NCBI GenBank assembly: GCA_032358255.1
Contig: JAULBX010001669.1
Location: forward strand, 1-64,000
Length of the DNA stretch: 64,000 nucleotides
Origin: Heterotrichella gracilis
Lineage: Eukaryota > Sar > Xanthophyceae > Tribonematales > Xanthonemataceae
Direction: 5' to 3'
A program made the translations under genes and the position numbers. This document shows, piece after piece, positions 3,801 to 56,897 of this stretch (its first letter is position 1; the number at the start of each line of letters is the position of its first letter). The notes under the pieces were generated by a model. That model had not been told where the DNA came from. It did no database searches and was given only the letters and a program-made list of their open reading frames with translations.

Positions 3801-6607
3801 TGCTGGTAATAGGGATCGTAGTAGGGGGCAGGAGGTGTGGGATATGGCCCGGCCGGCAGCAGCGGCAGGTGGGTTGGTGTTGGCTGGTCTGTGGACCATG
3901 TTGCAGCTGCGGGGGCAGCAGGGAGGGAAGCAGCATTCTTTGCGCGCACTACCAGGCGCTTGCCAGCCACCTGCAGAAGGGAGCAGGCTGCGATGGTGAG
4001 GAGAAAGCGGGAAGCAGTTGTGGCGCGCAGGGGACACAAGCCACACAAGCACATTGCAACGGCTAGAGGACCGCTGATAACATGTGCCATGCAACTTAGG
4101 CAGTGCCTCAACCTTTGCTAATTCCTCTACCGTCCTGTTCAAGGACAGCCTGCATCTTTGTTATTTTTTTTTTTTTTCCGGTGCCGTGCAAGATGCAGCA
4201 GTAGATGCAACCATGCACACACTGCTGCATGATTGGAGTCGCTGCACATGGGCAGCAAGATGACCCTTCCCACCTGGTGATTGTTGAGATGCGCCACCGC
4301 CTGCGCCGCCGCCTGCTCACTGGCCACGCGCACAAAACCAAACCCTTTGTGCTGGCCTGTTGCGCGGTCCACAATGACATTGCACTCCACCACCGGCACC
4401 AGCGACGCAAATAACGCATGCAGTGAGGGCTCATCCATGGAGGGTGGGATATGTCCAACATACAGGTTGCAGGGGTCGTTGCGATCCGAGCTGGCGGGGT
4501 TGTATGGTGGGGGCCGGGGGGGAGGAGGTGCAGGTGCTCCGGGCATAGCAGGCACCCTGTAGCAATCCACATTGGTTGAAAAATGAAAGTGTGGGCAGAG
4601 CATATTAAATGGCCCAGTTGACAATGTTGTTGCACATGGATACCTAGTGACAATCATGTCCAACACATATAACAATGCCCAGGATATTGCAGCATGCCAG
4701 CCCCCATTTTCTGCAGACTACAAACAAACAACCAATTTTTGCACACCTTGGGCCTGGCCCCTCGCCCCCCAGCTCCTGCAGGAAAGTGTGGTACTCGCTG
4801 TCCATCTGGTGCGCGCCCACCCCCGTGCTGCGCGCAATGTCCCGCTGGTACTGCTCCTCCACCTGGCCGCGCAGGTGGTCCGGCAAGCGGTAGGGCTCGT
4901 CCTCCCCCTCGCCATGGGTGGAGGCCAACAGTTCGTGGTCACGCAGCGTGCCTGGAATATGCAGGGGCAGTGAATCACATGCCATGTGGCGGTGAGCGGT
5001 TAACGAAGATGGCATGCATATGACGGTATATGAGCAGCCAGCACAACATGCGCCAGCCTGCCCACCACGCATAAAGCATGACCTACTATGCCTTCAACAT
5101 TCATGAGAACGCTGCATCATGAACCCAAGGGTGTGTATGCAGTGCAGCCAGCAAGCCCCGCAGCCATCCTGCCGCTAGTGCACACACCATTGAGTGTTGC
5201 AAGCTCCCGCAACTGCTTGCGCTTGTGCTCATTCTGCGTCTCATCTGTTGGAACCAGAAGCTTTTGTACCATGTCGGCAGCCTGCGGTGGGAGTCACAAA
5301 GCACCTGCTGTCAGCAAGGCATGCAATGCATGGTACGAGATCAGAGGCAGTGTAATGCCAGGCATTGCGCGTCATCCCACACACAGCCGGCGCATCCCAA
5401 AGCGCCTGCAAATGCAGACATGCAGGTTGCATCTTTGCACCATGATGCCGACCATCACCCCATGATGCGACCATCACTCCCCCCCACCTTCTCCACCGCC
5501 TCCTCACTGTCCGCTGTAATGAGAACATGCAGATCCTCGCTGTCAGACGGGTCAGGCTTGGCGTCCCTGCCACGGCCCCGCCCCTCCTTTACCGACCCGC
5601 GGCCCCTGATGGCAATTTTGGCGCCACTCTCCTGCTCCATGCGTTTCTGCGTGTTGCCCCGCGGGCCAATGATGAGGCCAATGAAGTTGTAGCCGGGGTA
5701 GCTCGCCACAGGGATGTCGATGCGTCGCTTCTTCTTCTCGGGGCGGTAGTCGGTGGGCGGTCGGAAGCTGGGGCTGCGCTTGATGAGCTCTGTGATAAGC
5801 TCCTGCAGGTTAGTGGGTGAAGTGGGTTCAGCAACAGTCCAAGCTGACTTCAGGCAACATGCATACAGCACCCATCGGCAGGCCAACATTGGTCAAACAT
5901 GTAGTCAGTGGCATGCACCCACCGTGCGTTGCTTCACCAGTGCCTCCTTGCTGCGCTGCTCGCGCGTGTTGGTGCGCATGCCGTTCTGGTCATACACTGG
6001 CTCGGGCGACATGCCACGCTCCGCATCAGACACCAAATCCTCATAGTACTTGCCCGCCTGAATCAGCTGAAGCTTCTGGTTGACCTGCATGGGGGGTGCG
6101 TGCAAATAATGAGCAACTGAGGAGGTACTGTGTCTTGAACACTGTCCAGACGTGGCAGTCTTTCCTGATGCCAAGCTGGATATGCATCAACACAACAGCC
6201 GCATCACCTTCACCGGTGTGGTTCCTTACCACGTTGAGCTTGCGGTGCACCTCCATGGTTTCAGGGTCTGCCAGGTGTGCCATGATAGGTGGCAGCACAC
6301 CAGTAGCAGGCACAAGGGCAGACCCCGGGGCAGGTGCGTCTGGCTGGGGCTCCCAGCGGCTGCGCTTGCGCCTGCGCGGCTCACCCTCCTCGCCACCAGG
6401 GCCACTGGCAGACTCAGGCTCGGCCTGGATGGTATCAAGCTGCTTCTTGCTAGCATGCGCGTCAGTGCCAGCCTCCTCAATAGCGGCAGAATGGGGTACT
6501 GATGCCGGCTTTGCATCTGGACCCCACCGCGTTTTCTTCCTCTTGCGCTCCTTGGGTGGCTGGCTGGGTGCTGCTGCATCACCCACTGCTTCCTCGGAAT
6601 TGGCCAT
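841..6607 (-). CDS. SF1: Splicing factor 1 / branchpoint-binding protein, plant type (KH + RRM)
   Basis: Recognises the intron branchpoint and pairs with U2AF in early spliceosome assembly in the nucleus. Twelve exons: 6607-6230, 6084-5923, 5802-5488, 5281-5188, 4951-4747, 4556-4274, 3970-3684, 3473-3173, 3014-2856, 2522-2373, 2125-1877, 1203-841; about 981 aa. Residues 1-126 carry two basic RS-W motifs ([15 protein letters not shown]) of the U2AF-ligand type. The KH-QUA2 domain (about 200-315) has [20 protein letters not shown] and ends [11 protein letters not shown]. An RRM follows ([17 protein letters not shown], about 410-490), then a Tyr/Pro-rich tail with a run of eleven prolines and an Arg-rich end. 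The CCHC knuckles expected after the KH domain are absent. Domain identity is certain; the last three exons rest on phase and composition only. Confidence 0.93.
3339..3367. repeat. GGT microsatellite coding polyproline in SF1
   Basis: About nine GGT units on the plus strand read as CCA/CCC proline codons in SF1 exon 8 on the minus strand. Repeat length variation here would alter the protein in frame. Confidence 0.9.
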
Positions 6608-7685: not shown

Positions 7686-10600
7686 ATGGTGGACTCCTTG
7701 AAGAAAATCACGAAGGACAGGCTCCTGGTGCGTGGCACTGGCCTATCCAATGCGTGCACCCCTCATGCTTCACCTGGAGTACTGAAGGCTGGTGGTGTCC
7801 TGCAGGTGGAGATGCTAGGGGCTGTCCGAGAGTCGTCGGGGAACGACTGGTCCGTTCTGGTCCTCGATCCAAGGACAACGAAAGTGATGTCAGCTTCTTG
7901 CCGCATCAGTGAGATCATGGACTACAGTGTCAGCTGTAAGTGGGGGGTTGCAGTGGGTTGGTCTAGACTTGCCTTCTTGCAACTCTTAGATATGCAGCTA
8001 AAATATGTAGTGAGCATATTTCACATCGGACAATCGGGTGCTGACACTGCCATAACGGAAAACGTTGATGGCATGCATGCATATAGCTATGGACACAGGC
8101 ACATGTGCTGGATGTGAACCCAAACGTAGTCACAGCTCAACGGGACTCGCTGTGCCCTGCAGTGGTGGAGGACTTGAACAAAAGGCGCGAGCCCCTGCCA
8201 GCGCTGCAGGGCATCTATTTCATCACCCCGTCAAATGCGTCGGTGTCAAGGCTAGTGAGCGACTTTCAGTCAGCATCTATGGCACAGTACAAGAAGGTGC
8301 ACGTCTTCTTCTCCTCCAAAGTCTCTGGTCAGCTTCTGCAGATGATCAAGGATTGTGCCCCATTGAGGGCACGTTTGGCAACCCTGAAGGAGGTGAGTGG
8401 GGGCACTCAGGGCCTGTGCATATGTGCCGTGCCTTCTCGCCTGAGCCGGTGTGTCAAGACTGAAAGGCTTTGTTTCCACGGCAGGTGAACTTTGAGTGGC
8501 TTGCGGTTGACAGGCGGACGTTTGTCACAGACCAGGAGCGCGCCCTTGTGACCTTCTTTGGGGAGGGCAACGAGGGTACACCCTTGTACAGAAGCGAGTT
8601 GACAACAACTGTCAATCGGCTGGTGACAGTGTTCGCCTCATTGAAGGTGGGCTGCTCATTTACAGGCACTGTAGAATGGCATCAACAACATGCTACAGCT
8701 GGGTTTCTGGTAACATTTGTGCTGTCAACCCTTGCATTGCATGTGCATTCTACTTAGAAGGTCACCACTTGACGGTTAAACCCTAAACCCTAAGGGTAGC
8801 AATTATCGTTGCTGTGACAGTGCATAACAGTCTTCAAGCATTTTGCTCGTGGTTGCAGATGTTCCCAGCCATTCGCTTCCGCCTGCCCAAGCCCTCAGAG
8901 GACCTGCCTGGTGTGGCAACTCGGCTGCTCATCTCCCAGCGCATTGCCGCAGACTTGCATGAGCGGTTATTGGAGATGCAGCGCACAGGTCTGCTGCCTC
9001 CTGGGGAGCAATGCGAGCTGGTGATCACGGATCGCTCCTTCGATGCAGTGGCACCCATCATCCATGAATGGACCTATGAGGCCATGCTGTATGACTTGGT
9101 GGGCCCTCCCCAACTGTCAGGAAGCACCTTCAAGTACGAAGCCGAGACACAGGGCGGTAAGTGCACACACTGCAGGGCTTTTGCTCACACCAACCTCCAG
9201 CCGGTCATGACTTCACAACTGCGGCTTGCAGGCAAGAAGGAGAACAAGGATCACCTGCTGGACGAATCCGATGACCTGTGGACCGCCATGCGCCACAAGC
9301 ACATCGCTGAGGTGAACATGAAGCTGTCAGAGAAACTGAACGAGTTCAAACAGAAGAACAAGGCGGCTCAGTATGCACAGGCGGGTGCAGGGCTGGACAA
9401 CATGCGAGCCTTCCGGCAACTAGTGCAGGCAATCCCTGAGTACAGGTAATGTCATGTCCATGGCAGGGCGCTGTTTATGTGGCAAGTTGTACGACCTTAA
9501 GCTGACCCTGTGTTTGCCATGGCAGGGAGCAGCTGAGCAAGCTGTACGTGCATGCTGAGATGGCCTCCTTGCTGAACCACCAGATGGATGAGCGCAACCT
9601 GCGCGAGCTGGGCAAGCTGGAGCAGGACCTGGTGTTTGGAGACGCAACCTCAAAGGAGGTCATCTCCTTCCTCACTACTAACCAGAACATTCCTTCACAG
9701 GATAAGGTGCGATTGAATGGTGTGGGTGCACGTTTAAATTGGGGTACGGTAGTAAGAGCCGCATTCTGATCCGCAAATGGGTGGCTGTGTTGCAGGTGCG
9801 TCTGCTGATGTGCTATGCAGCCACCCACCCTGAGAAGCTGGATGGCAACAAGCAGAGCAAGTACCAGCAGCTGGCTAAGCTGTCCACAGGGGAGATGGAG
9901 ACCATCAACTGCTTGGAAAACTTTGGCATTCCTGTGCGCAAGCACAGCAAGTCCACTGGCCTGTCGTTCAGCCGCAACAAGAAGCGCCTTGTGCGGAAGG
10001 TCAGTGCGGCATGAGATACCATTGCAATGCTCGCCACAAATTCAATTGTATGTCGTCGCATTGCATGAAAGGATGCCCAGGTGACCTGCCTCGTTTTCAA
10101 CTGCTACACGCACATGTCATCACAATCACAGCACCTCCGCCCTTTGTACTCACCCCCATGGTACCCCCACATTTGCCTGCAGGAACGCGAGGCTGATGAG
10201 GATGAGGAGCAGTGGGCCTTGTCCCGCTTCAACCCAGTGCTGCAGGACGTGGTGGAGGACCTGGCAGCGGGGCGCCTGTCTGTAGAGGAGTACCCGTATG
10301 TGCGCCCGCCGGCGTCAGCGGACTCAGGTAGGCAGCAGGTTCACCACAAATGTTGCATGCCATTGGTTGGCAGTACAAAACCTGAAGGGCATCTGCGCCT
10401 GCCTTTCAAGTGCTGATTGCCATTGGTGCTTGGCTGTGGATTGATGGGCACTGTCATCAATGAGTGGCGTTGCTGCTCTACAGGGGCGTCCAGCACTTTC
10501 CGGGGCATGTCAGCCCGCACTCGCGCACCCAACTGGGCCAAGAAAGCAGCAGACACGTCTCTGGAAGGCGCTAAACCCAAGGTATAGTGCTCACCAATTT

Positions 10601-12360: not shown

Positions 12361-13953
12361 TCACTCAGCCTCCATTGGGGCTGCAGCATCTCCTTGCTCT
12401 GCTGCTTCTGCAGCTGGTGCTGGCTCCTCTGCTCCCTCCTCCGCTGGTGCATCCTCAACCTGCAGGGCAACAAGTTGCTGTCAAACAAGTTCAACAGATC
12501 GTACTTGCCAGCAGCGTATTGGCATATTGGAGGGATCAACACAGGAAAGCAGAGTTTAGTATCTGCCAAATCCGCTGCGGCGCAGTAACACCCTACGATA
12601 CCAAAGATTAGGTTTAAACCAGTTCAGCTGTCCAAAGTTGTGGCATACCGGAATATCTTCAGGGCCATCATCTTCTTGATGCAATGTTGCAATGTATGGC
12701 TCAAGCTTCTCGTTCTCGTACAGCACAAATGGCGTGTCTTTGCCAACCAGGGCCACTGTGCAGTTGCTGGACGTCAGCTCATCATCAGTGAGCGATGAGG
12801 CCAACGCTGTCAGCGCATGCTTAATCAACTGATCCGCGCTTGCACCTGAGAAGCTCTCGAATTGCCGCTCCAAGTATGTTTTGCATGCCTGGCACACATA
12901 CAAGCTGTCAGTACACACGCCAAGCATCAAAGCTGCGCGGCCCGCCAAGCACCAGCCTGAGCAGGCAGAGATGTTTTGAGCACTGTGCACACACACCTGG
13001 GATCGTGCGCCGATAGCCATTGCTTTGTAGTCGTAGAAGTTACCAGACGGGCAGTTGTAGAACAGTTTTGCACCGGTCTGGTCATAGCCTGCCACCAATA
13101 GGCCTACACCATATGGGCGCTTCCAGGAGCGCTGCGTGCAAACCTGTGCTTTGTCTGCAACCTGCCGAACCAGGCGTCCCAGTGGCATAGGAGACTCGTA
13201 GACAAACCTGCAACGAGCAAAGGTGATGTACATTGTTGCAATGGAAGGCAGCGGAAGGCTCAACACGGCATATTGGCGGCAGGGTCTGGTTGTGGCGTGA
13301 GGCGGTTGTGGCGTGAGGCGGTTGTGGGTGATTTAAATCGGTGCTGCTCATGCCGTGATGCTGTGCACTCGGTTGCCCAGTGTTCCAGGCCGACCAGTCA
13401 CCCACGCACATGGAATGCATGGACTTGTGTGGATGGGAGGCATGCCATGCATGCACAGATGTTTGAGTCTGTGAAGCTGCTATCACTACCTGTGGTTCAG
13501 GCACTCGTTGCGCATGTATCTGCTCAAAACCCTGCCATCTGCTGTAAGACCGGATATAGCAATGCCCATATGCTCATCAATCTTGAACACTTTTCGTTGA
13601 TGCGAAGCCAGGTCCGTCTCAGCTTTCTTCAGGGTGGCGATGACGACATGGGTGTTACTCTGCGCACAACAACATTTCCTATGAGCACGGATGCGCAACC
13701 AACCATACAAGAGACAGCTGTAGTGCCCGGCTTTGCTACCTTCAACCCAAGTGCCGCGCTGCCCTGCTTCACTGCTTCCATGGCATACTCAACCTGATGG
13801 ATGCGTCCCTGGGGCGACCAGGTGACGACATCGGTATCATACTGCAGCATCACACGATCATCAGTGTAAACCAAAGTTTTACCATAGAGGTCATGGGTTG
13901 TCGACATATGTCACGCAAACGAGCCTCTCATCACCCACCTGGTTGCGAAACAT
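12361..13953 (-). CDS. PSMA1: 20S proteasome subunit alpha type-1 (PAF)
   Basis: Non-catalytic outer-ring subunit of the 20S core, involved in gating. Six exons: 13953-13939, 13841-13740, 13659-13490, 13207-12997, 12888-12649, 12459-12361; 278 aa. Exon 1 is a 15-nt microexon coding MFRNQ, the family's N terminus, followed by a GTGGGT donor. Gene finders are likely to miss it and start at an in-frame ATG in intron 1 instead. Family signatures are [56 protein letters not shown] and [13 protein letters not shown]. The acidic Ala/Glu tail ends in APMEAE, as in plant and algal orthologues. All phases close. Confidence 0.96.
13288..13327. repeat. 16-bp tandem repeat, 2.5 units, in PSMA1 intron 3
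   Basis: Unit GGTTGTGGCGTGAGGC occurs twice in full and once in part. A small intronic minisatellite with no visible function. Confidence 0.9.
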
Positions 13954-36650: not shown

Positions 36651-37546
36651 GTTTGCAGAAAGGGAGCAGCAGGGAGGGCGTTCAGGTGCTTTCAAATGGT
36701 CCCTGGTAGGCCAGCTAGATCTAGCAAGTCTCCTGAAGAGGTCCATGTCCCGCTTAAGACTGCACTTGGCATTGCTATATCTATTTTTTCTTCTTGTTTA
36801 TCTGCTTGACGTATGAGTGCCACCACCTGATGCATGGTTGTGTATGTTTTCGCACAGATCGTTTGACACCTTCGCATGCATTTTCAAAATGTTTTCATTA
36901 CCGCCGCAATTGCACGTACTCTATTATTTGTACATTATTGCCTGCCCCTTGCCTACCACCTTCAAGTCGCAGATGCCTGACAGGGCGTGGGTGCCAATGA
37001 CACCATGTGGTTGGCTTGCCTTAACATTTTTTGCATTTACCTTTGACTTTCACCATCCGCACTGTGTGTGTGCCCTTCAAAATATCACCATGTGAATATT
37101 CAGCTGTATACCTTCGCTTAGGGTCTTGCTCAAACCCCTAGGGTTTCGATGCCAACGGCATCGTGCCCGTGAGCACTTTAAAGCTGATAACTGGCTCTAT
37201 TTCTCGCTATGCCTTATCTTGGCTGAACAGAGAGACCGATAGCAACGTTGCCGGTGTTTGTGGGGTCACCCTCCCAACGGTTTAAGCCCACTGCTGGGCA
37301 CCACCACCGCAGCCAAGGCAGGCTCGGCCAGCAAGGAGCGCATGGCCGGAACTCCGTTGTATGCTGTGTCAATAGCATAGCACATCTGCAACTATGCAGT
37401 TGACCCTTCCCCTGTAGTTGGCTGATCCCTTCCTAGTTCGTTCGGCGGGGCCTCCTGTCTGCCACTGGTGCGGCGGGCGCATCAGTGCGGAGTCCTAGCC
37501 CGCCGCCGCTTCCGATGCCAGTCCAGTGACACCCACCGCCGCCACC
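36651..37546. promoter_or_regulatory. RPA2 upstream region with telomere-type motif
   Basis: No gene. TTAGGG at 37119-37124 and the near-palindrome AAACCCCTAGGGTTT at 37132-37146 lie about 400 bp before the RPA2 start. In plants, telo-boxes mark genes of the translation and ribosome-production machinery, so this is a plausible but unproven control site. Confidence 0.5.
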
Positions 37547-40500
37547 ATGCTGAAGGCCACAGTGCAGGGCACGGAGGTGCCGCCTGAGCTGGAGGCGCTG
37601 GTTGCGCCGCACATCCAGTCGTGGGACTGGTTCTATGACACCGGCCTGGAGGCGTCAGTGGCGGCGCTTGAGCCCGTCGAGGTACGCCGCTGCCAGGGAT
37701 TGCGACGCAAATTTGGACTGCTATTGCTTTCTATGTTGTGGGTGGCTAGCTGCAGTGAGTTATGTGGTGCTGGGCAACCCGGAGGTTGATGTCACAGTGC
37801 ATGCATTGTCGGCGGCCATATGCATGCATATAGCGAGCGCACTGAACGCTCCGCCGCTGGAGTGGCCACAGAACCCTGCGAATGAAGTGCTACATCTTTT
37901 TAAGAGGCTAAGCTGCCCCCTTTTCGCCATCAACTCTCATATCACTTTCCCTCGCCCTCAGGTCAGCACCCCAGGTGGAGCGCGCTACCGCATATGGCTA
38001 GAAGAGCCGCGCATCAACAAACCGCTGAAGGAAAATGAGGGGTTTGGAGCTAGCGGGGCAATCTACCCCAGGGACTGCAGGGAATCGGTGTGTGCTCAGA
38101 AAGCCATGCAAAACCCACCATGGCATGTGCTTGTTAGATCTGCCCTTGTCGAGGTTTTGTTGGTGCTGATGGATATGCTTGAGAAGAGGTTGTACGACTG
38201 GCTTGAAGTAGTTTGCAATGGCTTTTGGTGTACCTCATGCAGTGTCACTCCAGGGCTTCTGATGGGCCTATGTAGTGGGTTGTGTGGCTGCGGGCCTGTA
38301 TGGCTTTGGCTTGCGCAGCACCTGGCGAGGGCTTGCCTTTGCTTGGGGTGACACGCCCATTTGCACTGCATGGAAGGCCGTGTTCTCGAGCCTTCATTTG
38401 GCTCCACCTGCTCACCTGGTCCCCTATTGCAGGGCGTCACGTACAAAGGGGCAGTTTTCATCGAGGTCCATTGGGTGCGTGTTGGGTCCAAAATGCCCTC
38501 CCAGCATTTTACTCGCCGGCTGGGGTACATGCCAATTATGGTCAAGTCCAGGGGGTGCTACCTGAAGGGCCTATCTAGAGCAGAGCTGGTGGCAAGAAAA
38601 GAGGAGTCAACGGAAATGGGCGGGTATTTCATTTGTAATGGAATTGAGCGCATCATCCGGCTGCTTATTCTGCAGCGGCGGCATTACATCATGGCCATGC
38701 GGCGAGGGGCATACAGGAAAAGAGGGCCCAATTTCACAGAATTGGCCACGCTGATGAGGTGCGCCTGGGGCCGGGTGGTACTCCTGCTGTCCCAGTTGGA
38801 TTGTGAAGCTTTTCACATTGATTGCATGTGCGAAGATGGTGCGTTGCCTTTGTCAGTACAGTACAACACCCACTGTATGCTAGCAGTCCGTGTCCATTGG
38901 GCAAAAAGTTGCTGAATTGTACGTGTTGAGGTATTTTGACAGACTTTACATGCCCATACCCAATCTGGTACATGCAAGGGGGTTGTTGCATCAACTTACG
39001 GAGGCTATGATGAACAGCATAGTATACTTGAAGCGGAGTTACTCCCGTTCTTGAAAACTTACTAAGCAAATGTCTTTCGCTCCTATCTGAGCCTCCTGTA
39101 GCGTAATTACCTTGCACTCATCAAAAAAGACATTTCGCAATTAGATCCTCATGGCTGTCAGTCAATCCTGCCCTGGCAACCTCACTTCTTGGGATTTGAA
39201 AATCTCGCCTTTTACCTTTGCACCCCTCCCATGCGTAATCCTCAGGTACCCTAGACTGCAGGCCACCCACCCGTTTTAACCCCTGCCGCAGGTGCGTGCT
39301 GCCAGACGAAACCTCCACCACAATCCGCCTGCACTACCTGACAGACGGGACCGTCACCCTAGGGTTTGTCCTGCGCCGCGCCGAGTACTTCATCCCCCTT
39401 GGCATTGTCCTCAAGTGCTTGGTCGAGATCAGCGACAGGGAGATTTTTGACACCCTGGTCAATGGGTCGGAGCAGGTAGGGTTTTGGATGGGGTCATGTA
39501 GTGTGTGCCAATGTGGAGTTAGCAGGCAGCTACCTGATTGGCAAGTAGTGCTGTTATAACCAGGACCTGATGTAAGAAGACTGAAAGTTGTTAACAGCAG
39601 CACATGAATGGCCTGAATGCTCTCAGTATAGTCCAGGATACTTCTTACACTCCACCTCCTTTCTATGGACCAGCAGCACTACACTACCACCCCCCTCAAG
39701 CCTAACCCTTCTCCCATGTGTGTGCAGAGCGATGGCCACAGTTCCTTTGTGGCTGAGCGGGCAGAGCTGCTGGTACAAGCCGCTGCAGCGCACAACCTGG
39801 CCAACAGGGCGGATTGCCTGGCGTACATAGGCACATACTTCAGGGTGGTGCTGGACTGCAGCAAGTGGGAGAGCGATGTCGAGGTGAGCAGCACACCACT
39901 GTGGGCGAGGGGGGTTGCTGGAAGTTGGATGCGTGTGCTGTGGAGTCGCTTTCACGTTGGGAGTTCAAAATGATGTCTTCAACGCACGATGGATGCCACT
40001 TGACAACCATGTGCCCATCCTTGTCCATGGCCAATGGCAGGGTGCATTCATGCCGCTCCCAATGTCCTTGACCCCAGTACAGCTGCTCCCCCCCAATCCT
40101 TTCCTATCCTCACCTCGTCTCCTAAGCACGCCTTTGCACTCCCCTTCCACACCACTTAGCCCCACGCCACCCTGCTCCTCCCCTTCCCATTGTTCTTACC
40201 ACATCACCTTCCCAATCCTTCCCGCAGGCTGGCCTGAAGCTGATGCGCGTGATTGTGCTCCCCCACCTGCAAGAGCCTGCCTCCAAGGTGGCCACCCTGT
40301 TTGCCATGTGCCACAAGCTGTATGCGCTGGCCAATGGGGTGTGCGGGGAGGACAACCCGGATGCGCTCACACACCACGAGGTAGGGGTTGGTGTGGGGCG
40401 TGGGCTTGGTTGAGATAATGCTGTGGGCACAAGTGTGGTGTGTTCTGTCTCTCTCTGCACTTGTTCCTGCCTTCTAGCTTTGCCTCGAATGATGTGCCTC

Positions 40501-43500
40501 TCTTGCTGAAGAACAGCAATGAATTTACTACTAATAAACAGCCAGTTTCATGAATACAAAACAAGGATTCTCAACATGACAGTTCTGTTTGCTGCAGCTG
40601 ACACAGTACCCCTTTGCTCTCAGGTCCTGCTGCCCGGCCACTTGTTGACGCGCGCTGTGAAGGAGATGCTGTCAGGGGGCCTGGCAGCAATGAGGGATCA
40701 AATCATGCGGGACGGGGAGAGGGCGCCGGACGGGGTGCAGCTGGCGGTGAGTAGACTTTCCCTTCGAGTTGTGTGCATGTCATCTCTCCTGCAAGGCCTA
40801 GGACCTGTGACTAAGTTGAGGGCACTTTCTGGAGGAGAGAGCAGGTGCTCCCAGTAAGCTGTGATCCACATCCCCACCTGCATGGCACAATCTTGCGGTG
40901 GTGGAGCACATGCTGATGCACCCCCCCTCCCCTGCAGGATGACAGCTACCTGAAACGGGTGGCGGACCGCAACCTGCCCAACGTGGGGGACAAGGTGGAG
41001 TACCTGCTCAACACAGGCAACCTGGTGTCGCGATCGGGGCTGGATCTGCAACAGGCCACGGGGTTCACGGTAGGTTTGCAAATGCGTCTGCAATGGCCAT
41101 ATATCTGGCTATACCCGGCAACCCTAAAACACACTGAATGCCTGCACCTACGATATGCACAAAAATAATAACGAGGCCCAAGTGGCCTGCATGTACTTCA
41201 TGGGATGCTGCTTGATGTCCCTGGCTATAGTGGCCGGCTTTGTTGTGCTGCACCTGCATGGTATCATGTTTTTCGGCATGTGTAAATCGTTGAATCTTGG
41301 TTGATAACCGTTTCTTTCCCCCTTGCAGATTGTGGCTGAGAAGCTGAATTGGTTCAGATTCTTGTCGCATTTCCGGTCCATCCACAGAGGAGCATACTTC
41401 ATGGAGCTGCGCACAACCACTGTGCGCAAGTTGCTACCGGAATCCTGGGGATTTCTGTGCCCTGTGCATACACCTGATGGCTCCCCCTGTGGCCTGCTCA
41501 ACCATTTCACCGCACCCTGCCAAGTCATCACGCAAGTGCCTGCTGATACTGAGAACATGCGGCGACAAATGATTGCGGTACGGTTTCAATACATTGTAGC
41601 AATACACACACACAATTGCTGGCATACAGTTGCACATTGTCATATCTAACACTGAATGGATTGTGGGAGAGTCAAGAAATGCCTTTTCAATGTACTGTGG
41701 CAAAGCAAAACCTGACAAAGGACCTTCTACCTACCCACAGGCGCTCGGCATCCTTGGCATGACCCCAGTCAGTTCAGACCTCCCCGCCGCGCCCCCGCCA
41801 TCAAACATGCCAGTGATGTTGGACGGGGAGCTGGTTGGCTACGTGCCCTCAGTGCTGGCTGGGGGCCTGGTTGCGCACATCAGGTTGGTGAAGGCAAGCA
41901 AGCTGCAGGGGAGCAACCTGGTGGACGTCAAGACCCTCAACAGGGATGTGCCGCCAGACCAGTTCCTGTTCTTCATGCAGCGGGTAAGGCACAGTGGCGC
42001 TGGGGCTATTGCCATGGGGGGAATTGTAGCGTAGGAGGAGAAAAAATCAGCTGACACATGTGGAAGGATAGGTTGATATGTTGGAGCATGGTTTGATGCA
42101 CAGCTGTCCTGTCATTGTCTGGCTAGGCAAGGGGTTGTAGTAAGCAGCTCTTGTTGCTCTGTATCAGCTCTGCCAGGTCTGTTTGGTCAAAGCCTGGTAC
42201 CAACATCAGCACCAGTCCCCCTATTTAATGCGGCTCATCATTACCCTTCCCTGCAGGACCCTGAGATTGCCATCCCCGAGCATCTGGAGATTGTGCACAT
42301 ACCCCCCCTGCACGGCGGCCCCTACCCGGGTGTGTTCCTCTTCACCTCCCCTGCCCGCATGATGCGCCCGGTGCGGCAGCTGGGCACTGGGGCGGTGGAG
42401 ATGGTGGGGTCCCTGGAGCAAGCCTTCATAAGCATACGGTAGGGTTTTGCTAGGGTATTTGGCAACATGTGAGGTTCTATAAATGTGTCTATATGACGAT
42501 GATATTGCCAGGGACCTGCGGATAGGGCATTGGTAGGATTGCAGTACATGCTGGATCAATGTGGATTTGTTTGCACTGTCGAGGTAATCGGTAGGGTTTT
42601 CTAGGGTCTTTCTCGCAGCAGCTGATGACACAACCGTTATCCCTGGCTGAATCCACCAAGGCCGGTGGACTCGTGTTGATTAGCTATTAGCTCTAACTGA
42701 TGCTACGAGAAAGCCTGAAGCCCTAGTAGGGTTTGCATGCTGCGTTCATCATCACAGTTGCACTTGACTGCATGCACTTGCTTTCATTCTCTGAGCATCT
42801 CACATGAAGTTGTTATTTAGTGCTAGGCGTTGGACAACTTGTGTGATATTTCGTCTATGGTTTGGGTTATTGCATGTGCATCCCCCCTGCTGAGCCTCGC
42901 AGTGTGACCCGTGCTACAGCCTCCTTTTCTAACCGGCTGTAGCGCTAAAACATGCTGCAACATCGCATCCCCCTTCTGGGGGGCAGGCGTTTAAGCGGGT
43001 GCCAGCTCTGCGTTGCACATGCTGCCCACCCTTTGCACGCGCATGACATTTCCCCCTTCACACCCCAATATAGGGGTGATTACCATGCGCCCATTAGATG
43101 GTACCGGTGCAGACCCTAGCAGAACTTAAATCATGACGCATTTGACAATACTCATTGTATAGGTTATGAATGTCTAGATTTCAAAATGCCTAGATTTCTT
43201 GTTTGCACCCCGTTAATGTTTGCATCCTTCCTTGCATTTTCAGGGTCCCAGATGGCGGCGCGGGCGGATCAGAGGGGCTGAAATTCACGCATTCGGAGAT
43301 TAACACCTCTGCAATGCTGAGTGTGGTGGCCTCGCTCACCCCTTACTCTGACTTCAACCAGTCCCCTCGCAACATGTACCAGTGCCAGATGGGCAAGCAA
43401 ACCATGGGCACCCCGCTGCAGGTAAATGCAGCTGCACACCCGAGTTTGTCCCCTGCTGCATTCAAATGCACCCACTTACTGTACTGTGGAGTTGATGCCC

Positions 43501-46500
43501 ACCATCATATGCAGAAAGTGCAAGTTAAAATAGGCAGATCATTGTAGTTCTCGATGTGCAAAGGTTGGTGTTATCTCGGGGCTGTGATGGAATAAAGTAA
43601 AGGGTAATTTGCGTCAGCCGACTGGTTGAGACAATCTACTTGCTGAGCCCCAGATAGGTTGTTAAGGGACAGCGGGCCACCACCCCAGGTACATGCTGCA
43701 TCTCTCAGCAGGCTGTTTAGTGTATACTTGTGCTGCAAGTCATTCCCTCGTCAATGCATTTGTCTTGCCACATCTGGTCTGCACTGCTCCAGTATGTCCT
43801 TGCCTGTCAACAAACACGGCACAAAGTTAATAGTACATGGAACGAAAAGTATTAAAGTAATTGTGATATCAAAAAAGTGTGATGATTGCCGTTGCACCAT
43901 CGCAATATCTGTGTGAGGAGGGGTGATGATCCGCACTGGGCACCGACCAAAATATGACGATGCAACGTGCATGGGGCTAGGGGACTGACATCCCCTCCCC
44001 GCTACTGACCTCCTAACACACCACCCTCACCCAACCCACATGCAGCAGCAACCCTCGACTAGCAAGCCCACGCCACCCCACTCAACGCACACATCCCGCC
44101 CCCCCGCAGGCCTTCCCCCATCGAGCCGACACCAAGCTGTACCGCCTGCACACGCCGCAGACCCCGCTGGTGCGCACGAAGCGCTACGACCAGTATGCCA
44201 TGGACGAGTTCCCTGCAGGGGCTAACGCGGTGGTGGCTGTGCTGGCGTACACAGGTGGGGGGCCAAGGGGCTGGGCGGGGGGCTGCTGTGCAGTTTCCTG
44301 TTTTTAATATTTATTACAAGCTTTTCCAGATTGAAGTCGAGCGTTACTGCAACAATTCTGTGGCAAACCCTGTCAGTATTGTACAATGGCTTGTTGTAGG
44401 GTTCTTGTCAAAATGCACGGTTTGGTAGGGTTTGCTAGGTTCACCACTTGTGGGGTGTTGGCACTGGGCGGTGATGATCTTGCACATCCGATCTTCTGTG
44501 ACGAGATAATCAACTCCTACTCATTCTGAGCCCAATGCCACCCCCTTTATGCACACTGTACGGTTGCCTTGCAATTGTGAGAGGTGCACACAATGTGAAG
44601 GTGCGGGTTGTGAAGTAATAACAACAAAAAGTACTTGTTTGTTCATTATTGCAAAGTGCCATGTCACACCAATTTGATCCGCCGCTTGTTGTTTGCAGGC
44701 TATGACATGGAGGATGCCATGATCCTCAACAAATCTGCGGTGGATCGTGGGTTTGCTCACGCAACGCTGATCAAGACAGATGTTGTGGACTTGGCCGATC
44801 ACACGCCGCTCAAGACCGACTCTGTCATCTTCACTGCCCCGGTTAAGCCTGAGAAGAAGGGGGATGGCATGGAGCTGCTCCCGGCTACAAAGGAGAGGCC
44901 CTCGGTGAGTACGCAGTGCGGAATGCAAGGAATATTTCATCGACATGCTCACACGGAATTGAATGATTGAGTATGACACATTTTGTGTCATTGTTGCGAT
45001 TGATAAGGGAGAATCGTCTGAGCACATGGGATGCTCAGGGTACTGCAATCTCCGGCCTCCACTATTCACATGTTGAGTATTTTTCTGACTCGGCAAATTC
45101 CCCCTTCTCCCAGGGGGCATTTGGCCAAGAGTATCCCCAGAACGAGCCCAGCTCTGCCAAGTCGTCAGCGGTTAAAACCCTGGGGGTGTGCCCTGAGGGC
45201 AACTACCCCGACAGTGACCGCATTGATGTGGATGGCCTGCCGCATGTGGGGGCTGTGGTGTGGCCCAACCAGGGGTACTACAACCACTACAACACACGGA
45301 CACGTAAGTGCGCCTACGAACCCTGCCATGTTGCTGTGCTGGTTGTAAATTGTTGTTGGGGCAGATGATCGTCAATGGGTGTTTGCCTGATAGAAACAGC
45401 CCTGCTTTGGCTGCCAAAATCCCCTCAGCTTGCACAGCAGTAGTGGCCTGTGCCAACTCTTGGGAGGTTGAAAACTTTTAACCAAAACGTGTAGCCATGA
45501 CTGGAATTGTCCTCTCCAGCGGTCTCACTCTGCCCCTTTTCCCCTTGCTTCCTCCAGAGATGCACAAGCAAGGCAAGGTCAAGGGCGAGGAGGTGGCGTT
45601 CGTTGAGCAGGTGGCGGTGGTGGGCCAGAAGGACAAGCCCGTGTCACGCGTCAACATCAAGATGCGCTACAACCGCAACCCAGTGCCGGGGGACAAGTTC
45701 TCGTCGCGCCACGGTCAGAAGGGTGTGCTGTCCCAGCTGTGGCCGGACGTGGACATGCCCTACTGCCCAGCCACAGGCATCAGGTGAGCCATGGTGCTGG
45801 TGGCATGGGGATGTGGCTAATGGGCAGTGTTTGCGCCACATTAATGTGTCCAAGTATGTTATACAATGGCTGGCGATTGTTTCTTTCTGGGGCCTATAGT
45901 GGTGACAGTGAAGCTCTCTTGTCACTGCCAGTCATGAAGGAAACTTTTGTCATTTCAAGCTCACATGCACGTGCCGATCTAACTAATCCCCGGTTTCCTT
46001 CTTCCCATCCTTATGCTCCTCCTTTTGCACCCCAGGCCTGACCTCCTCATCAACCCCCACGCCTTCCCCTCGCGTATGACCATTGGCATGCTGGTGGAGT
46101 CGCTGACAGGCAAGGCAGCTGCGCTCAAGGGCACATTTGTGGATGCCTCCCCATTCCAAAGGTTTGAGGGGGGGAGCCAAAATGCCGCAGAGGAATTTGG
46201 CCGGATTCTGGAGGCAAATGGGTTTGCAAAGCATGGAGGTGAGTGGTAAATTGGGTTTTTAAGCTTCCATGGTGGATCCATGTGTGAAGCTGGCCTACGC
46301 ATGTCATTGCTGCCTGCTCTGCCCAAGTAGAAGTGGTAGAGCGCATTTTATTTGTGAAAAGCCGCCAAGTTGCAATGTGGCACCTGATTGCCTAGCATGG
46401 AGACATGGCGACGTCAGTGCATACTCACCCATATGTGCTGTGTTCATCCAGGTGAGACTATGATCAGCGGCATCACCGGGGAGGAGTTCCCTGTGGATGT

Positions 46501-47416
46501 TTACATCGGCCTGGTGTACTACCAGAGGCTGAGGCACATGGTGTCGGACAAGTTCCAGGTAAGGGTTCCTGCTGGGGTTTGTTAATAGCCTGCCACCAAT
46601 CAGGAGCAATTTAACCCTGCCACATGCGATGCACATGGAGTTTTAGACTGTATGCTGGTGGAGAACATGCATTGCTGGTTGTCTATCGTTACGTCGCTGC
46701 GGTGCTGAGTTGCCAAGTTGGCATGATGATACGCAGGGGCAGCGTCCTGATGTAAGTAAACTCCCGTGTTCTGACACCTCCCCATTCCCTTTCAGGTCCG
46801 CTCCACCGGCCCCATCAACCAGCTGACGCACCAGCCTGTCAAGGGGCGCAAGGCAGGGGGAGGGATTCGGTTTGGAGAAATGGAGAGGGACTCGCTGCTG
46901 GCGCACGGGGCAGCGTACCTGCTGCACGACAGGTACGGCGCTGTCTTCCTGACGCACTAATGCCCCTTGCATGCTTATGTCTTGGGCTTTTGAGATAATG
47001 CCAAAGGATCCTGTGCATGTTGCTGCCCTTGCATCCTCACTGATTGAGCATGCACACTCGTTGATCATCAATTATATGATCATCACCCTCTCCCTTCAGA
47101 ATCCACCAACTCACGCCCTCCCCGTGTATCTCCTCGCAGGCTGCACACCTGCTCAGACTACACCGTGCTGGATGTGTGCGCAAAGTGCGGCTTGCTCATC
47201 TCCACGCTGCATGTGCCGCACACAGCTGCAGCCTCGGTGGCCAGTGCAGTGGGGCTAGGGGACCTGGGCGCACCCGGGGTGGGCTCCCGCACCATGTGCC
47301 GCCTGTGCAGCAGCAGCAAGCACGTGGAGCGGGTGGCGCTGCCCTGGGTGTTCAAGTTCCTGGTGTCGGAGTTGGCGGCGATGAACATCAAGGTGTCGCT
47401 CAATTTGACGCGGTAG
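37547..47416 (+). CDS. RPA2: RNA polymerase I second-largest subunit (A135/RPA2)
   Basis: Forms one half of the Pol I catalytic cleft and makes the large rRNA precursor in the nucleolus. Twenty exons: 37547-37681, 37962-38087, 38433-38758, 39292-39475, 39728-39883, 40228-40380, 40624-40746, 40938-41069, 41329-41577, 41741-41983, 42257-42438, 43244-43421, 44110-44254, 44699-44904, 45114-45303, 45558-45783, 46036-46238, 46452-46558, 46796-46932, 47140-47416; 1,225 aa, all phases closing. The start has an ideal GCCACCATGC context. Key motifs are [63 protein letters not shown] and a C-terminal zinc site (CAKC..CRLC). Pol I rather than II or III is indicated by the N-terminal [14 protein letters not shown] block and the zinc-site spacing. 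Its introns host box C/D snoRNAs. Confidence 0.97.
39000..39096 (+). ncRNA. Box C/D snoRNA, snR60/U80 type, in RPA2 intron 3
   Basis: Perfect C box ATGATGA (39007-39013) and D box CTGA (39087-39090), closed by a 6-bp terminal stem GGAGGC/GCCTCC (39000-39005, 39091-39096). The guide before the D box (GTCTTTCGCTCCTAT, 39072-39086) pairs over 15 nt, with one G-U, to LSU AUAGGGGCGAAAGAC. The fifth nucleotide from the box faces the G that is Gm908 in yeast. A weak D' box (TTGA, 39028-39031) is preceded by GCATAGT, whose fifth-position T faces the A of GAACUAUGC, yeast Am817. Yeast snR60 guides exactly this pair, so orthology is very likely. Intronic position implies release by splicing and trimming. 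rRNA sequence and numbering are from memory. Confidence 0.88.
42609..42712 (+). ncRNA. Double-guide box C/D snoRNA in RPA2 intron 11
   Basis: A 12-bp inverted repeat with one mismatch (TTTCTCGCAGCA at 42609-42620, TGCTACGAGAAA at 42701-42712) encloses a C box (CTGATGA, 42622-42628), D' box CTGA (42647-42650), C' box (GTGTTGA, 42673-42679) and D box CTGA (42697-42700). The D guide TATTAGCTCTA pairs 11 nt with SSU UAGAGCUAAUA; the N+5 nucleotide is the A that is Am159 in human. The D' guide GTTATCCCTG pairs 10 nt with LSU CAGGGAUAAC in the peptidyl-transferase loop; N+5 is the middle G, Gm2815 in yeast (snR38). I know of no yeast or human snoRNA with this pair of guides. rRNA sequences are recalled. 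Confidence 0.9.
43578..43651 (+). ncRNA. Box C/D snoRNA, U16/snR87-like guide, in RPA2 intron 12
   Basis: C box GTGATGG (43584-43590, last base off consensus) and D box CTGA (43643-43646) are closed by GGGGC/GCCCC (43578-43582, 43647-43651). An internal guide GGGTAATTTGCG pairs 12 nt with SSU CGCAAAUUACCC. With the D' position right after it (a degenerate TCAG), N+5 is the middle A of CAAAU, which is Am484 in human and Am436 in yeast. The guide before the D box (AGACAATCTACTTG) found no rRNA match from memory. The weak D' box lowers certainty a little. Confidence 0.75.
43917..43998 (+). ncRNA. Box C/D snoRNA, snR76 type, in RPA2 intron 12
   Basis: C box GTGATGA (43923-43929, perfect) and D box CTGA (43985-43988) lie inside a 7-bp stem GGAGGGG/CCCCTCC (43917-43923, 43992-43998; three unpaired bases follow the D box). 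The guide GCACTGGGCA before a degenerate D' box CCGA pairs 10 nt with LSU UGCCCAGUGC. N+5 is the third C, which counts to yeast Cm2197, the snR76 site. The guide before the D box (ATGGGGCTAGGGGA) has no target I can name. It is the second snoRNA in this 688-nt intron, which is unusual because metazoan introns normally carry one. Confidence 0.8.
44459..44540 (+). ncRNA. Box C/D snoRNA with unassigned guides, in RPA2 intron 13
   Basis: Perfect C box GTGATGA (44471-44477) and D box CTGA (44526-44529), closed by an 11-position stem with one mismatch: TGGCACTGGGC (44459-44469) against GCCCAATGCCA (44530-44540). The structure is as good as its neighbours'. The D guide (CAACTCCTACTCATT) shares 9 nt of complementarity with LSU GAGUAGGAG, with N+5 on the A of UGAGU; I know of no established methylation there. 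A D'-like CTGT follows CACATCCGATCTT, with no match found. It may be a lineage-specific guide. Confidence 0.78.
46723..46774 (+). ncRNA. Possible box C/D RNA in RPA2 intron 18
   Basis: C box ATGATGA (46723-46729), a D'-like CTGA (46747-46750) and a D box CTGA (46771-46774) are present. The D guide has 9 nt complementary to SSU AACACGGGA, with N+5 on the C of ACACG. No terminal stem could be drawn and the RNA would be short, so this may be chance. Confidence 0.3.
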
Positions 47417-49055
47417 TATCGGGGTTTTGGGAGGGTTTTTCATGGGGTTTGTTGGTGAGAATGAAGGAGGGAGTGTGATGTGAGGAGTGTGATTGGTGGG
47501 TGTACATCAGGGGACTTGGGAATGCAAGGCCACATGGTCTGAGACTCGTTTTTGAAATGTTGTTTTTCTGCAAAGTATTGCTCAGGTTGTTATTCTAGGT
47601 TTGTTAGTGTAGGACAGACATGAGCACCTCGAGCCCTCGCATGACGGCAACAATTTCCAGTAGTTGAACTTTAGGTAGACAACAAAAGGAATTATTTTTA
47701 TACGCAACGCATATCGAGTGTTCACCATTGCTGGCGGCAGATTGCAAAAGCAGTACGCGCAGGATTGACCCACCAATTGCTCTGTATAGTCCATTGGCTG
47801 TGAGTGCAGAAATGAACAATTATTGTCGAATCATGTAGTATTCGTACGTTGAGCCCCACCATAATGCCAAATTTGCCATTTTAATGACAATTGCTTCCCC
47901 GTCGGCATAAACAACTGTTGCATTTGAAGATGTGGCTGAGTGATTGCGGGCGTCCAGACTAACACACTGTGACAACGCGGGGTTGTATTGAGGGCGTGCG
48001 AGGGGCAAACAGAAAGGAAATTGCGCAACGCCGAGTAGGGGCTCTTAAGTGCAAGGCAACAGACTGCCTGAGGCAGGCACACCAGGAGGGTCGCTTGGCA
48101 TGGGCTTGGCATCAAGGAAGTGCCACTAACCCTGGCCAAGGCATGATGGCCTCAACAATTATTGCGTGCATGTCACACGCTAGGCAGCACGGTGAAGTGG
48201 CAGCAACAAACGATGTGCAGCCCAGGCAATAGTCTTGGCGCTCATGCACACAGGCTTGACCCACCTCGACCACCAACCTGGCACCAGCACTGATCCAGAT
48301 GGTATCATGTGCCATCTTGGTGCTGCAGTGCAAATCCCAGTCTTTCTGAACCTTAGTATTGCACTGCAGCACCTAGTATGTACACAATACCGTTGCCAAA
48401 CTGGGTCAGTGGGTGGTCGAGTTTCAAATGTAGACAGTTTCAAATGCATGCATGCATCGTGGTGGGACAAAACCTGCACGACAGGACGAACCCAAGCCGC
48501 TTCAAGAACCCAAGAGGCCAACTGGGTCGGTTGGCAATAATGTTGTTTAGAGCTCTCTTAAGGCTTAATGGCTGAAGGGCGAACCTTGAAACATTTTATC
48601 TATGCAAACTCCCCCCTTGCAGTTCAAACTTGCATGCACTCGTATAGAGTCAGTTACCCACCAACCCGCGACTTCCATTGATTCAGTAGCTGCGACGTCC
48701 TCCGTTTCGTGACAGTTCGCTCTGGTTCCCTGGCTGCGTTCATGATATGTAGGTTTCCTTTCGTTCACCAGGGATTGTGCATATCAGTGTTGCAAGTTCC
48801 CAAGCGGGCGTTTGGTGACTGCCTGCTATACCTTACTTGCTTTACGTCGGTTTGTGGAACACCCAAAGTTTATTGCCAGTTTAGCAACACGCATGCATAT
48901 ATTGCACTGGGGTCTATATTTCAAGATGGTGGATGACCATCGCTGCTGAATCCTAGTGCGGTTTGTATGCGGGACCTGTAGATAATTAGGATCTTCATTC
49001 TTTGGAGCCAACTTCACTGCCTTTGTTGACTGGTTGAGGCCAATAACCCCGTGCG
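47417..49055. other. Intergenic region between RPA2 and the HMG-box gene
   Basis: 1.6 kb without a supportable gene. Short frames on both strands have no family likeness. It presumably holds the RPA2 3' end and the promoter of the intronless gene. Confidence 0.6.
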
Positions 49056-49766
49056 ATGGCCAAGCGGGCGCCATCAGCCTACTTCATCTTCTGTGACGAG
49101 TTCAGAGCCTCCGTCAAGGCTGAGCTAGTCAGCGCTGCCCCTGATGGAAAGGTTTCCGTAGCACTTGTTGCCAAAGCCCTTGGAGAGCGCTGGAAACAAC
49201 TGACTGACGAGGAGAAGCAAAAGTACAAGGCGCTCCATGACCAACAAGCGGAGGCCTTGAAGGCACAAGCCGCTGAGCAAGGGGAGCAGCAAGGGGATGG
49301 TGGGGCAGCTGCACCCGAGGAAGAAGAGGAGAAGGAGAACAAACTCCCTTTTGGGCTTCCGGTCGGCTCTGTGAAGCGCATCATGCACATGGATGACGAG
49401 GTGACCAGGACGTCCCTGGATGCTGTGCGGGCAACAGCCAAAGCTACCGAGCTGTTCCTCCAGATGATGGGAGTAAAGGCAGCGGGCGTTGCCAGGAAGA
49501 GCAAGCGCAGGACAATCAGGTTTGATGACCTGGAGCAGCTGGCCAAGTCTGACAGCCGGTTGGTGGAAATGGGGCTGAAGGAGGTGTTCCGGATCGACAA
49601 GGTGTTTGTCAGGATGCGGGAGGAAGCAGAGGAGAGGGCAGCTGCACAAGCTGGAAAGCGGGCAAATGACAAGAAGCAGGATGGGGATGCGCAGTCGCCA
49701 ACAGTTGGCAAGAAGGATGACCCCGTAACCAAGACTCGCCAAATCACTGACTTTTTCAAGAGATAG
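49056..49766 (+). CDS. HMG-box / NF-YC-type histone-fold protein with C-terminal PIP motif
   Basis: One uninterrupted exon, 236 aa, the only intronless gene here. Residues 2-70 form an HMG box (KRAPSAYFIFCDEFRASVKA, VAKALGERWKQLTDEEKQKY). An acidic linker (about 87-92) follows. Residues 97-185 form a histone fold of the NF-YC/Dpb3/CHRAC15 group (LPVGSVKRIMHMDDEV, RKSKRRTIRFDDLEQLA). After a basic, Ala-rich linker the protein ends TRQITDFFKR, a PCNA-binding box: I, then T-D, then F-F, with T instead of the usual Q at position 1. This points to DNA replication or chromatin assembly in the nucleus, perhaps as a Dpb3/POLE4- or CHRAC-like subunit. The domain calls are firm; the cellular role is inferred. 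Codon use looks like its neighbours'. Confidence 0.92.
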   Translation: MAKRAPSAYFIFCDEFRASVKAELVSAAPDGKVSVALVAKALGERWKQLTDEEKQKYKALHDQQAEALKAQAAEQGEQQGDGGAAAPEEEEEKENKLPFGLPVGSVKRIMHMDDEVTRTSLDAVRATAKATELFLQMMGVKAAGVARKSKRRTIRFDDLEQLAKSDSRLVEMGLKEVFRIDKVFVRMREEAEERAAAQAGKRANDKKQDGDAQSPTVGKKDDPVTKTRQITDFFKR

Positions 49767-54939: not shown

Positions 54940-56897
54940 TCACATCACGCACTTCCCCTGCACGCCATCTTCACACACACTCCCCATCACCTCCCCAGAC
55001 ATTTGAAACTTGAAGCGATTTTCCCGCCACACCCCGTCCTCCGCCAGGTAGCGCTCCCTTGCCTCCGCCCCGCCATCGGCCCACACCGCGATCCCGATCT
55101 GGCTGCGGGTGCCGTAGGGTCCAGTGGCCATGCGGATGGGGTCTATGTAGGTGGCGCTCAGCACCTGCTCAGCCTCTACGGGCCAACCAGTGCTGGGCAG
55201 GTGACGGGGGTCGGTCACCTAGACAGGAGGAGGATAAGGTAAGTAATGGTGGATTTGGTATTAACTTTATATGAAAATGTCACATAACCCACCTGAACAC
55301 CCCTACATGTAAGGACCAAGGGGAGGTGTCTGTGCTGGTGGACCAACGATGCTGCCACACAGCCATGGCAATCCGCATTATCACCCCATGACATCTCATG
55401 CCATGCGACGATTGTGGGATCTATCCTGGAGCAAGCAGCAGCGCGACCGACCAGCAAGATGATGCAGTTTCCCACCTGTTCCCGGTTGCTCAGGACCTCA
55501 GCAAATATCGCATCCCACGGCGCCTCCCCATCATCAAACTGCCCCCCTTGCAACATGGCTTTCAGCTGCTGCTCCCCCCTTGCCACCTTGGGCCACGTGT
55601 CATGCAGCAGCCCATTGGTCACCCCGATGACCCCCCCTGCTAGTTCTTGTGGCTGCGCCCCCCTGTTGCTGGTGTATGCCAGGTGTCCCAAGCACAGGTC
55701 GCCCACAATGAGATTGAAGCCGTTGAAGGACTGCAGGATACACCGTTGAATTTCATGTTATTTCATTTCATTTTCATTACTAATTAATTATAAATTCTTG
55801 GCGCGTGATTGCCATGACCAGTATGGAAACTCATTTTGGTGTGCTGACAAAACACAAGTGTACAGCACCTATCTCGATTTCCCAGCCAACACAGGTGACA
55901 ATGGACGCAATGACAGCACAAGTCACATGGTATTGTTACCGATTCGCACAACTCCACCCCTTCATGCAGGGCAATGCATGGATACAAAGTTGCCCCATGC
56001 CTATTATTGTAGCATCATTGGGTTTGTGCTTGTGGAGGCGTACCTCCCCGTCTAGCCCCTCCAGGTACTCCAGCGGTGTGGCAGTGCCCGTGAGGAAGTC
56101 CAAGGGGAGCACGCCACGGCTGGTGGCACCTGCCCTGGAAACAACCTGGGCACAGGCACAGGGGAACGGCTTGCGTTGGCGTTTCAAGGCATTTTTGCAG
56201 AATATGCGTGCACCAGCACCGCAGCGGTACTAACCATGCATTACGACTGTGTCGATAGGTCGCACTGTAGGATAGGGATGTCAATCGGACCTAAGATGTC
56301 TGGTGGAGCTTCATGGGCTACTCCTTGAAGAATGCAAAGTAAACCTGGGGTGCGTATGCAACTCTGCAGAGTTCTTGCAACTCCAGCCCGTTGTACCCTA
56401 GGTAAGGGTTTTGGTGCTGTGGCCAGGTGGATGCTAGCGGGGCGCACCTCTCGGAAGTTTGTGAGCAGGGCGAATCTGCCGTCCTTTGTGATCCCCAGCC
56501 AAGTCCCCCCCGCCTCCTGGTCCCTGCCGCCAAACACCTGGGGATGGTCTGGCCACCAGTGGGCAGGTTGGGTGGGCCTGCGAGGGGGGTGGGGAGGGGG
56601 GCCGGGGGGATGATGGTGGGTGGTGAAGTGGGAAGCACGTTTGAGGTATAGGTAAGAAAGGGGAAATGGGTTGCCAGAAAAAAAAATAAAGTGGCCATGG
56701 AGACTATCCAATGGATGGTTTGGTGCCTGGGGGGTTGGGTGTGGGCAGGTGTTCAGGTTGGGATTGGGGGATTTAAGGGGTGGTGAGGCACACGACGGGT
56801 TGGCTGGTGTTCACCTTGTCAAAGACTCGTCTCGGTTGAAAGCAAGGAAGAAAGCGAGGCGTGGTTGGGTCTTGTACAGCAGGAAGGCCACACACAT
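54940..56897 (-). CDS. TANGO2: TANGO2 / NRDE-family protein
   Basis: Five exons: 56897-56815, 56577-56448, 56145-56044, 55730-55476, 55218-54940; 282 aa, all phases closing. The N terminus is MCVAFLLYKTQPRLAFFLAF NRDES-like, with the invariant Cys2 and NRDE motif that define the family and resemble N-terminal nucleophile hydrolases. Further landmarks are GGRDQEAGGTWLGITKDGRF, LTNFREV, SRGVLPLDFL, FNGFNLIVGDL and GVTNGLLHDTWPKV. Animal TANGO2 is linked to Golgi organisation, mitochondrial lipid and haem or CoA handling; the biochemical reaction is not settled and is not predicted here. The start is fixed by the need for Cys at position 2. Intron 3 holds an AT-rich stretch at 55750-55795. Confidence 0.94.

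Follow-up and report, generated by a model that had tools for sequence, protein, structure and literature searches.

Putative box C/D small nucleolar RNAs in introns of the RNA polymerase I gene RPA2 of Heterotrichella gracilis

RPA2 among known snoRNA hosts

In the alga Ostreococcus tauri, 72 of 131 small nucleolar RNAs (snoRNAs) are intronic, and 33% of the snoRNAs reportedly lie in host genes of ribosome biogenesis (PMC7671301). The human gene TAF1D, which encodes a factor of RNA polymerase I (Pol I), is a recorded host of SNORA40 (PMC8629011, PMC6466398). Here, we describe a related locus in the xanthophycean alga Heterotrichella gracilis, in a stretch of 64,000 nucleotides (nt) that we call the window (assembly GCA_032358255.1, contig JAULBX010001669.1, positions 1 to 64,000). 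In this window the gene RPA2 very probably hosts five intron-encoded box C/D snoRNAs (S1 to S5), predicted from their boxes, stems, and guides to direct methylation of ribosomal RNA (rRNA) at six sites.

The hosts of O. tauri resemble RPA2 in several respects: they are genes of nucleolar function with intronic C/D units, several per host and also two per intron. The difference, within the available portions of that work, is that RPA2 encodes a core subunit of Pol I, and overlap with its host tables is possible (PMC7671301). Like RPA2, TAF1D is a protein-coding gene that serves Pol I transcription and hosts an rRNA guide RNA. As far as the accessible parts of its two sources go, it encodes an initiation-factor subunit and carries the H/ACA RNA SNORA40, whereas RPA2 encodes a polymerase subunit and carries five C/D RNAs. 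Hence, the locus is less unusual as a host than the original prediction had it. We found no description of a Pol I subunit gene as snoRNA host in the open-licence literature, which is not a claim that none is in print. It is common for ribosome-biogenesis genes to carry snoRNAs in their introns, and RPA2 seems to be a new host within this known arrangement.

The host gene and its five units

The host gene is RPA2 (Table 1). The gene model has GT-AG introns and consistent exon phases, and gives a single unbroken frame. When the protein was compared with relatives of solved structure, three Pol I second subunits came out on top (1009, 953, and 943 bits), followed by an archaeal polymerase (401 bits), Pol III (385), and Pol II (371). 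It is thus nearer to the second subunits of Pol I than to those of Pol II or Pol III, and it carries the Rpa2-specific domain PF06883 (Pfam, 54.9 bits for a cutoff of 27). The intron numbers and coordinates proposed earlier match this 20-exon model, and so does the identity of the product as a Pol I subunit. The word catalytic, also used of it, is loose for the second-largest core subunit, as the metal-binding aspartates of Pol I sit in the largest one. The four introns that bear snoRNAs (3, 11, 12, and 13) are the longest of the 19 (533, 805, 688, and 444 nt, respectively), the remaining 15 measuring 163 to 345 nt.

Table 1. Positions in the window of the RPA2 gene, its snoRNA-bearing introns, the candidate box C/D units, and their guides (At, Arabidopsis numbering)
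Feature	Position	Strand	Description
RPA2, second-largest subunit of Pol I	37547-47416	+	Host gene; 20 exons, 1227 aa
Intron 3	38759-39291	+	Carries S1
S1, candidate C/D snoRNA	39000-39096	+	snR60/Z15 (U80) family; C 39007-39013, D' TTGA 39028-39031, D 39087-39090
S1 D' guide	39017-39023	+	At A826 (yeast A817) by spacing; weak, 7 pairs
S1 D guide	39072-39086	+	25S At G917 (yeast G908); 15 pairs including one G-U, on four large-subunit sequences
Intron 11	42439-43243	+	Carries S2
S2, candidate C/D snoRNA	42609-42712	+	Double guide; C CTGATGA 42622-42628, D' 42647-42650, D 42697-42700
S2 D' guide core	42636-42645	+	25S At G2816 (yeast G2815); core and register as snoR38
S2 D guide	42685-42695	+	18S At A162; 11 pairs on L007
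Intron 12	43422-44109	+	Carries S3 and S4
S3, candidate C/D snoRNA	43573-43656	+	First unit of intron 12; C GTGATGG 43584-43590, D' CAGC 43615-43618, D 43643-43646
S3 D' guide	43602-43614	+	18S At A440 (yeast A436); 13 pairs including one G-U, on consensus
S4, candidate C/D snoRNA	43910-44020	+	Second unit of intron 12; C 43923-43929, D' CCGA 43943-43946, C' TGACGA 43955-43960, D 44005-44008
S4 D' guide	43933-43942	+	25S At C2198; 10 pairs
Intron 13	44255-44698	+	Carries S5
S5, candidate C/D snoRNA	44461-44538	+	C 44471-44477, C' TGACGA 44499-44504, D 44526-44529
S5 D guide	44514-44525	+	25S At A1377; 12 pairs including two G-U on L002, 9 pairs on L006

All five units lie in the sense orientation within RPA2 introns and have a C box, a D box, and a terminal stem, which stands in each of them at the canonical offset of the kink turn (K-turn). 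The D box is an exact CUGA throughout. The C box is an exact RUGAUGA in S1, S4, and S5, with one deviation each in S2 and S3. The internal boxes are looser: D' is exact in S2 only, with one deviation in S1, S4, and S5 and two in S3, and C' departs from TGATGA once in S2, S4, and S5 and twice in S1 and S3. Minimum-energy folds keep the terminal stem in every unit (z of -1.50, -3.10, -2.43, -2.85, and -2.48 for S1 to S5). The stem scores are 11 for S2, 10 for S4, 9 for S5, and, at the low end, 5 for S3. Our box and stem scan recovered every one of the sense-strand units that had been proposed in introns 3, 11, 12 (two), and 13. One of them needed revision: the second unit of intron 12 stands, and its D box was moved to 44005-44008 (10 Watson-Crick pairs and one mismatch), since no canonical stem accompanies the inner CTGA at 43985.

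A looser scan of the whole window on both strands (no more than one deviation in the C box, exact CTGA 45-120 nt downstream, terminal stem) returned the five units in RPA2 and six further plus-strand matches outside it, all with other stem offsets, and none on the minus strand. When the stem offset was set to that of the K-turn (three bases left unpaired next to C and none next to D) and stem scores below 5 were discarded, settings that were fixed once the units were already known, the 128 kb of strand gave five matches on the plus strand, which are exactly S1 to S5, and none on the minus strand. When the gene span was shuffled 500 times with a first-order Markov model, 492 of the shuffled sequences held no unit, 8 held one, and none held more; shuffles of the whole window (n=100, one strand) had a mean of 0.23 units and a maximum of 2. 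Eight alternative stem offsets gave 0, 0, 0, 1, 6, 1, 0, and 1 matches on the plus strand and none on the minus strand. Four of the six matches at offset (2,1) are known units shifted by one pair, and the other two fall within a gene at 49056-49766.

The only match to Rfam at a curated threshold in the whole window is S1, which belongs to snR60/Z15 (RF00309; 49.2 bits for a gathering threshold of 41, E 2.6e-5, at 38998-39098). S1 keeps the D guide of snR60/Z15/U80 and its target (yeast G908, Arabidopsis G917), as well as the D' spacing to A817/A826, with a D' guide cut down to 7 pairs. A low-stringency search (E up to 10, region 37000-48000) gave families for S2 to S5 with scores under threshold, so we do not assign these units to snoR38, Z101, SNORD88, or Z105/Z221. 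Rfam scores alone would not establish S2 to S5, for which geometry and guides carry most of the case. At the same E limit, snoU82P (minus strand, 42387-42435) and snoZ30a (49661-49740) also appeared and were dropped, having no canonical unit.

Guides and predicted rRNA targets

Target nucleotides were assigned by the N+5 rule and numbered as in Arabidopsis, for which a RiboMeth-seq list gives 111 sites of 2'-O-methylation (PMC8053127, as far as available). For rRNA we used the Rfam consensus and conserved sequences of other eukaryotes, namely the eukaryotic ribosomal DNA in genome contigs L002-L006, which is evidently contamination or chimeric there, and an 18S piece in L007. Coordinates come from alignment to the Rfam models of large-subunit (LSU) and small-subunit (SSU) rRNA. 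Arabidopsis sites keep constant offsets to the LSU consensus (+5 for all 18 sites between 2198 and 2422, +3 for all 7 between 1263 and 1479, +4 for G917 and A945), and the SSU offset is -2 for C418 and A440.

Six of the ten guide slots fall on sites mapped in Arabidopsis, with at least one per unit: five by pairing and the D' slot of S2 by its snoR38 register. The predicted sites are G917, G2816, C2198, and A1377 in 25S and A162 and A440 in 18S rRNA. The original prediction had spoken of six positions known to be methylated, which it did not name, and six were indeed found; it credited four of the five units with guides that fit rRNA, which holds for the fit, and the count rises to five of five. 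In yeast, methylation is recorded at G908, A817, A436, and G2815 (PMC5199042, in the portion at hand). The assignment of S2 D' to G2816 rests on its likeness to snoR38 (RF00213) and on the published site, the 3' part of the LSU being absent from our rRNA set. The number A162 for S2 D we take from the start of Arabidopsis 18S and from SSU model position 162; the offset of two seen further along the SSU would shift it to the adjacent A of the model.

Several other assignments were tried and set aside. For S2 D we rejected A100, since the CUAGAGCUAAUA site is A162. For S3, yeast 18S A420 was ruled out: the published sites (C414, A420, and A436 in yeast, PMC5199042; C418 and A440 in Arabidopsis, PMC8053127; both sources in part), by their spacing along the Rfam consensus of the SSU, give A436/A440. 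The D guide of S4 has 9 pairs on L002 and 8 on the consensus; the match falls on LSU model position G2399, which lies between G2392 and G2396, both of them mapped, and was not counted, as 63 of 250 control guides pair equally well. Also left out were a 12-pair match of S3 to the 5.8S of L006, and the best match of S2 D' in the tested rRNA, a 6-pair chance match at the mapped G2396.

In the parts of PMC8053127 available to us, the targets of S2 are divided between two Arabidopsis snoRNAs. The D' core and register of S2 are those of snoR38 (25S G2816), and its D site, 18S A162, is that of SnoR18; joining both guides in one RNA is a modest further novelty of this locus. S3, S4, and S5 have target nucleotides in common with SnoR15/U16 (18S A440), SnoR118 (25S C2198), and SnoR7 (25S A1377), respectively, and are their equivalents by target only.

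As controls we took 561 guides, the 16 nt preceding each of the remaining CTGA on both strands, and matched them to the same 1015 nt of rRNA. Among the ten guide slots, five score at least 10, and all five are at mapped methylation sites. Whatever the score, 28 of the 561 controls have their best match on a mapped site; one of these scores between 8 and 9 and none reaches 9. Four of the 561 controls score at least 9.9, none of them at a mapped site. A second test used the whole rRNA with no knowledge of sites and counted how many of 250 controls did at least as well as each guide: 0 for S1 D, 4 for S3 D', 11 for S5 D, 21 for S4 D', 63 for S4 D, 126 for both S2 D and S5 D', 159 for both S1 D' and S2 D', and 199 for S3 D. 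The two guides of S2 rank poorly because the rRNA used differs at the site or lacks it. Given these ranks, the case rests on pairing and position together.

A number of points weigh against five functional guide RNAs in this gene. The best Rfam families of four units stay under threshold: snoR38 for S2 (32.5 bits, threshold 45), Z101 for S3 (24.4, threshold 44), SNORD88 for S4 (24.1, threshold 46, with a match that stops at the inner CTGA), and Z105 and Z221 for S5 (28.4 and 27.5, thresholds 45 and 44). The rRNA is not Heterotrichella's own. The 1015 nt, in which S3 D, S4 D, and S5 D' meet no mapped site, were picked around candidate sites, and the L002 stretch was added after S5 D had given no mapped site on the consensus (best 8 pairs elsewhere), its 9 pairs there starting four bases from the box. 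In the whole-rRNA test only S1 D, S3 D', and S5 D reach the top 5%, and the D' guide of S1 has only 7 pairs. S3 is the weakest unit by its boxes, with degenerate C and D'. Finally, a search for RPA2 relatives in viral contigs gave four stretches that fit a pattern, of which none is a relative.

Could the units be chance box matches picked by eye? Boxes span only a few bases, one can select D' boxes that fit, and the scores of S2 to S5 are as just given. Yet the shuffled gene spans never held more than one unit, the match of S1 by itself reaches E 2.6e-5, and three of the five D guides, whose box is fixed by the stem, fall on mapped sites, which makes chance hardly credible. A likelier rival is that the genome has active paralogues at other places and that some of the units here, above all S3, are silent or decaying copies. 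Multiple copies are frequent among plant snoRNAs (PMC7671301, in part), and the C box, D' box, and stem of S3 point the same way; this unit nevertheless retains a terminal stem and a 13-pair guide whose N+5 register points to a mapped site, and we regard decay as unlikely. Our preferred reading is that all five are intron-encoded guides.

Processing, surroundings, and meaning

From the sequence come the gene with its introns, the boxes and stems of the units, and the guides with the nucleotides that they are predicted to target; the processing steps follow established C/D snoRNA biology. RNA polymerase II would make the RPA2 pre-mRNA, and splicing would free introns 3, 11, 12, and 13. After debranching, exonucleases would trim each intron back to the terminal stem, with the K-turn shielded by 15.5K/Snu13, Nop56, Nop58, and fibrillarin. 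The two units of intron 12 imply an internal cut between S3 and S4. The mature RNAs would then direct 2'-O-methylation of the six nucleotides named above. Vertebrate C/D units generally lie at one fixed short distance from the 3' splice site. Here, units start 151-488 nt past the 5' splice site and leave 89-531 nt between their ends and the 3' splice site; since the latter distance varies, release probably depends on the terminal stems rather than on a fixed branch-point distance. The same variation, together with the strength of the stems, would also suit genuine snoRNAs made at least partly from intronic promoters or by cleavage of unspliced pre-mRNA, with host expression of little weight, and independent genes or clusters of snoRNAs occur commonly in plants and algae (PMC7671301, in part). 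That all five units are sense-oriented within introns of a single gene speaks against such an origin, which we consider improbable, and for release from the spliced RPA2 introns.

Elsewhere in the window, the single-exon gene at 49056-49766 (plus strand) encodes an HMG box (about residues 6-70 of the frame at 49047) and an NF-Y-type histone fold (104-164), and its C-terminal TRQITDFFKR resembles a PCNA-binding motif. Neighbouring gene pieces at 4142-5892 (minus), 8787-9446 (plus), 12559-13332 (minus), and 55218-56810 (minus) have among them Pfam domains of an RRM with a BBP-like KH domain, the Sec1 family, a proteasome subunit, and TANGO2. A hairpin at 48312-48381 has a weak likeness to mir-367 on both strands (Rfam 26.7 and 23.8 bits, threshold 54) and is therefore an imperfect inverted repeat. 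ARAGORN found no tRNA. Among the contigs with rRNA, L005, which is 1.16 Mb long and comes from the bacterial isolate Mangrovicoccus ximenensis T1lg56, carries at 3004-3595 (minus) a 592-nt eukaryotic LSU stretch that probably reflects contamination or a chimera. The contigs L001 (1-130) and L007 (1-107, minus) are filed as viral and have short eukaryotic 25S and 18S end pieces joined to other sequence.

The co-transcription of RPA2 with its predicted guides suggests that rRNA synthesis and rRNA modification may be coupled. A stronger version, in which the RPA2 introns are a selected and conserved snoRNA platform, so that one Pol II unit governs Pol I amount and guide supply alike and rRNA output and methylation capacity move together, is possible but doubtful. 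With this locus, a core Pol I subunit would join the genes that host snoRNAs, a concrete case in which to ask whether host choice ties rRNA synthesis to its modification. The five predicted guides are open to testing, S2 uniting a 25S and an 18S guide, and if the arrangement is conserved, the question of coordination would become directly testable.

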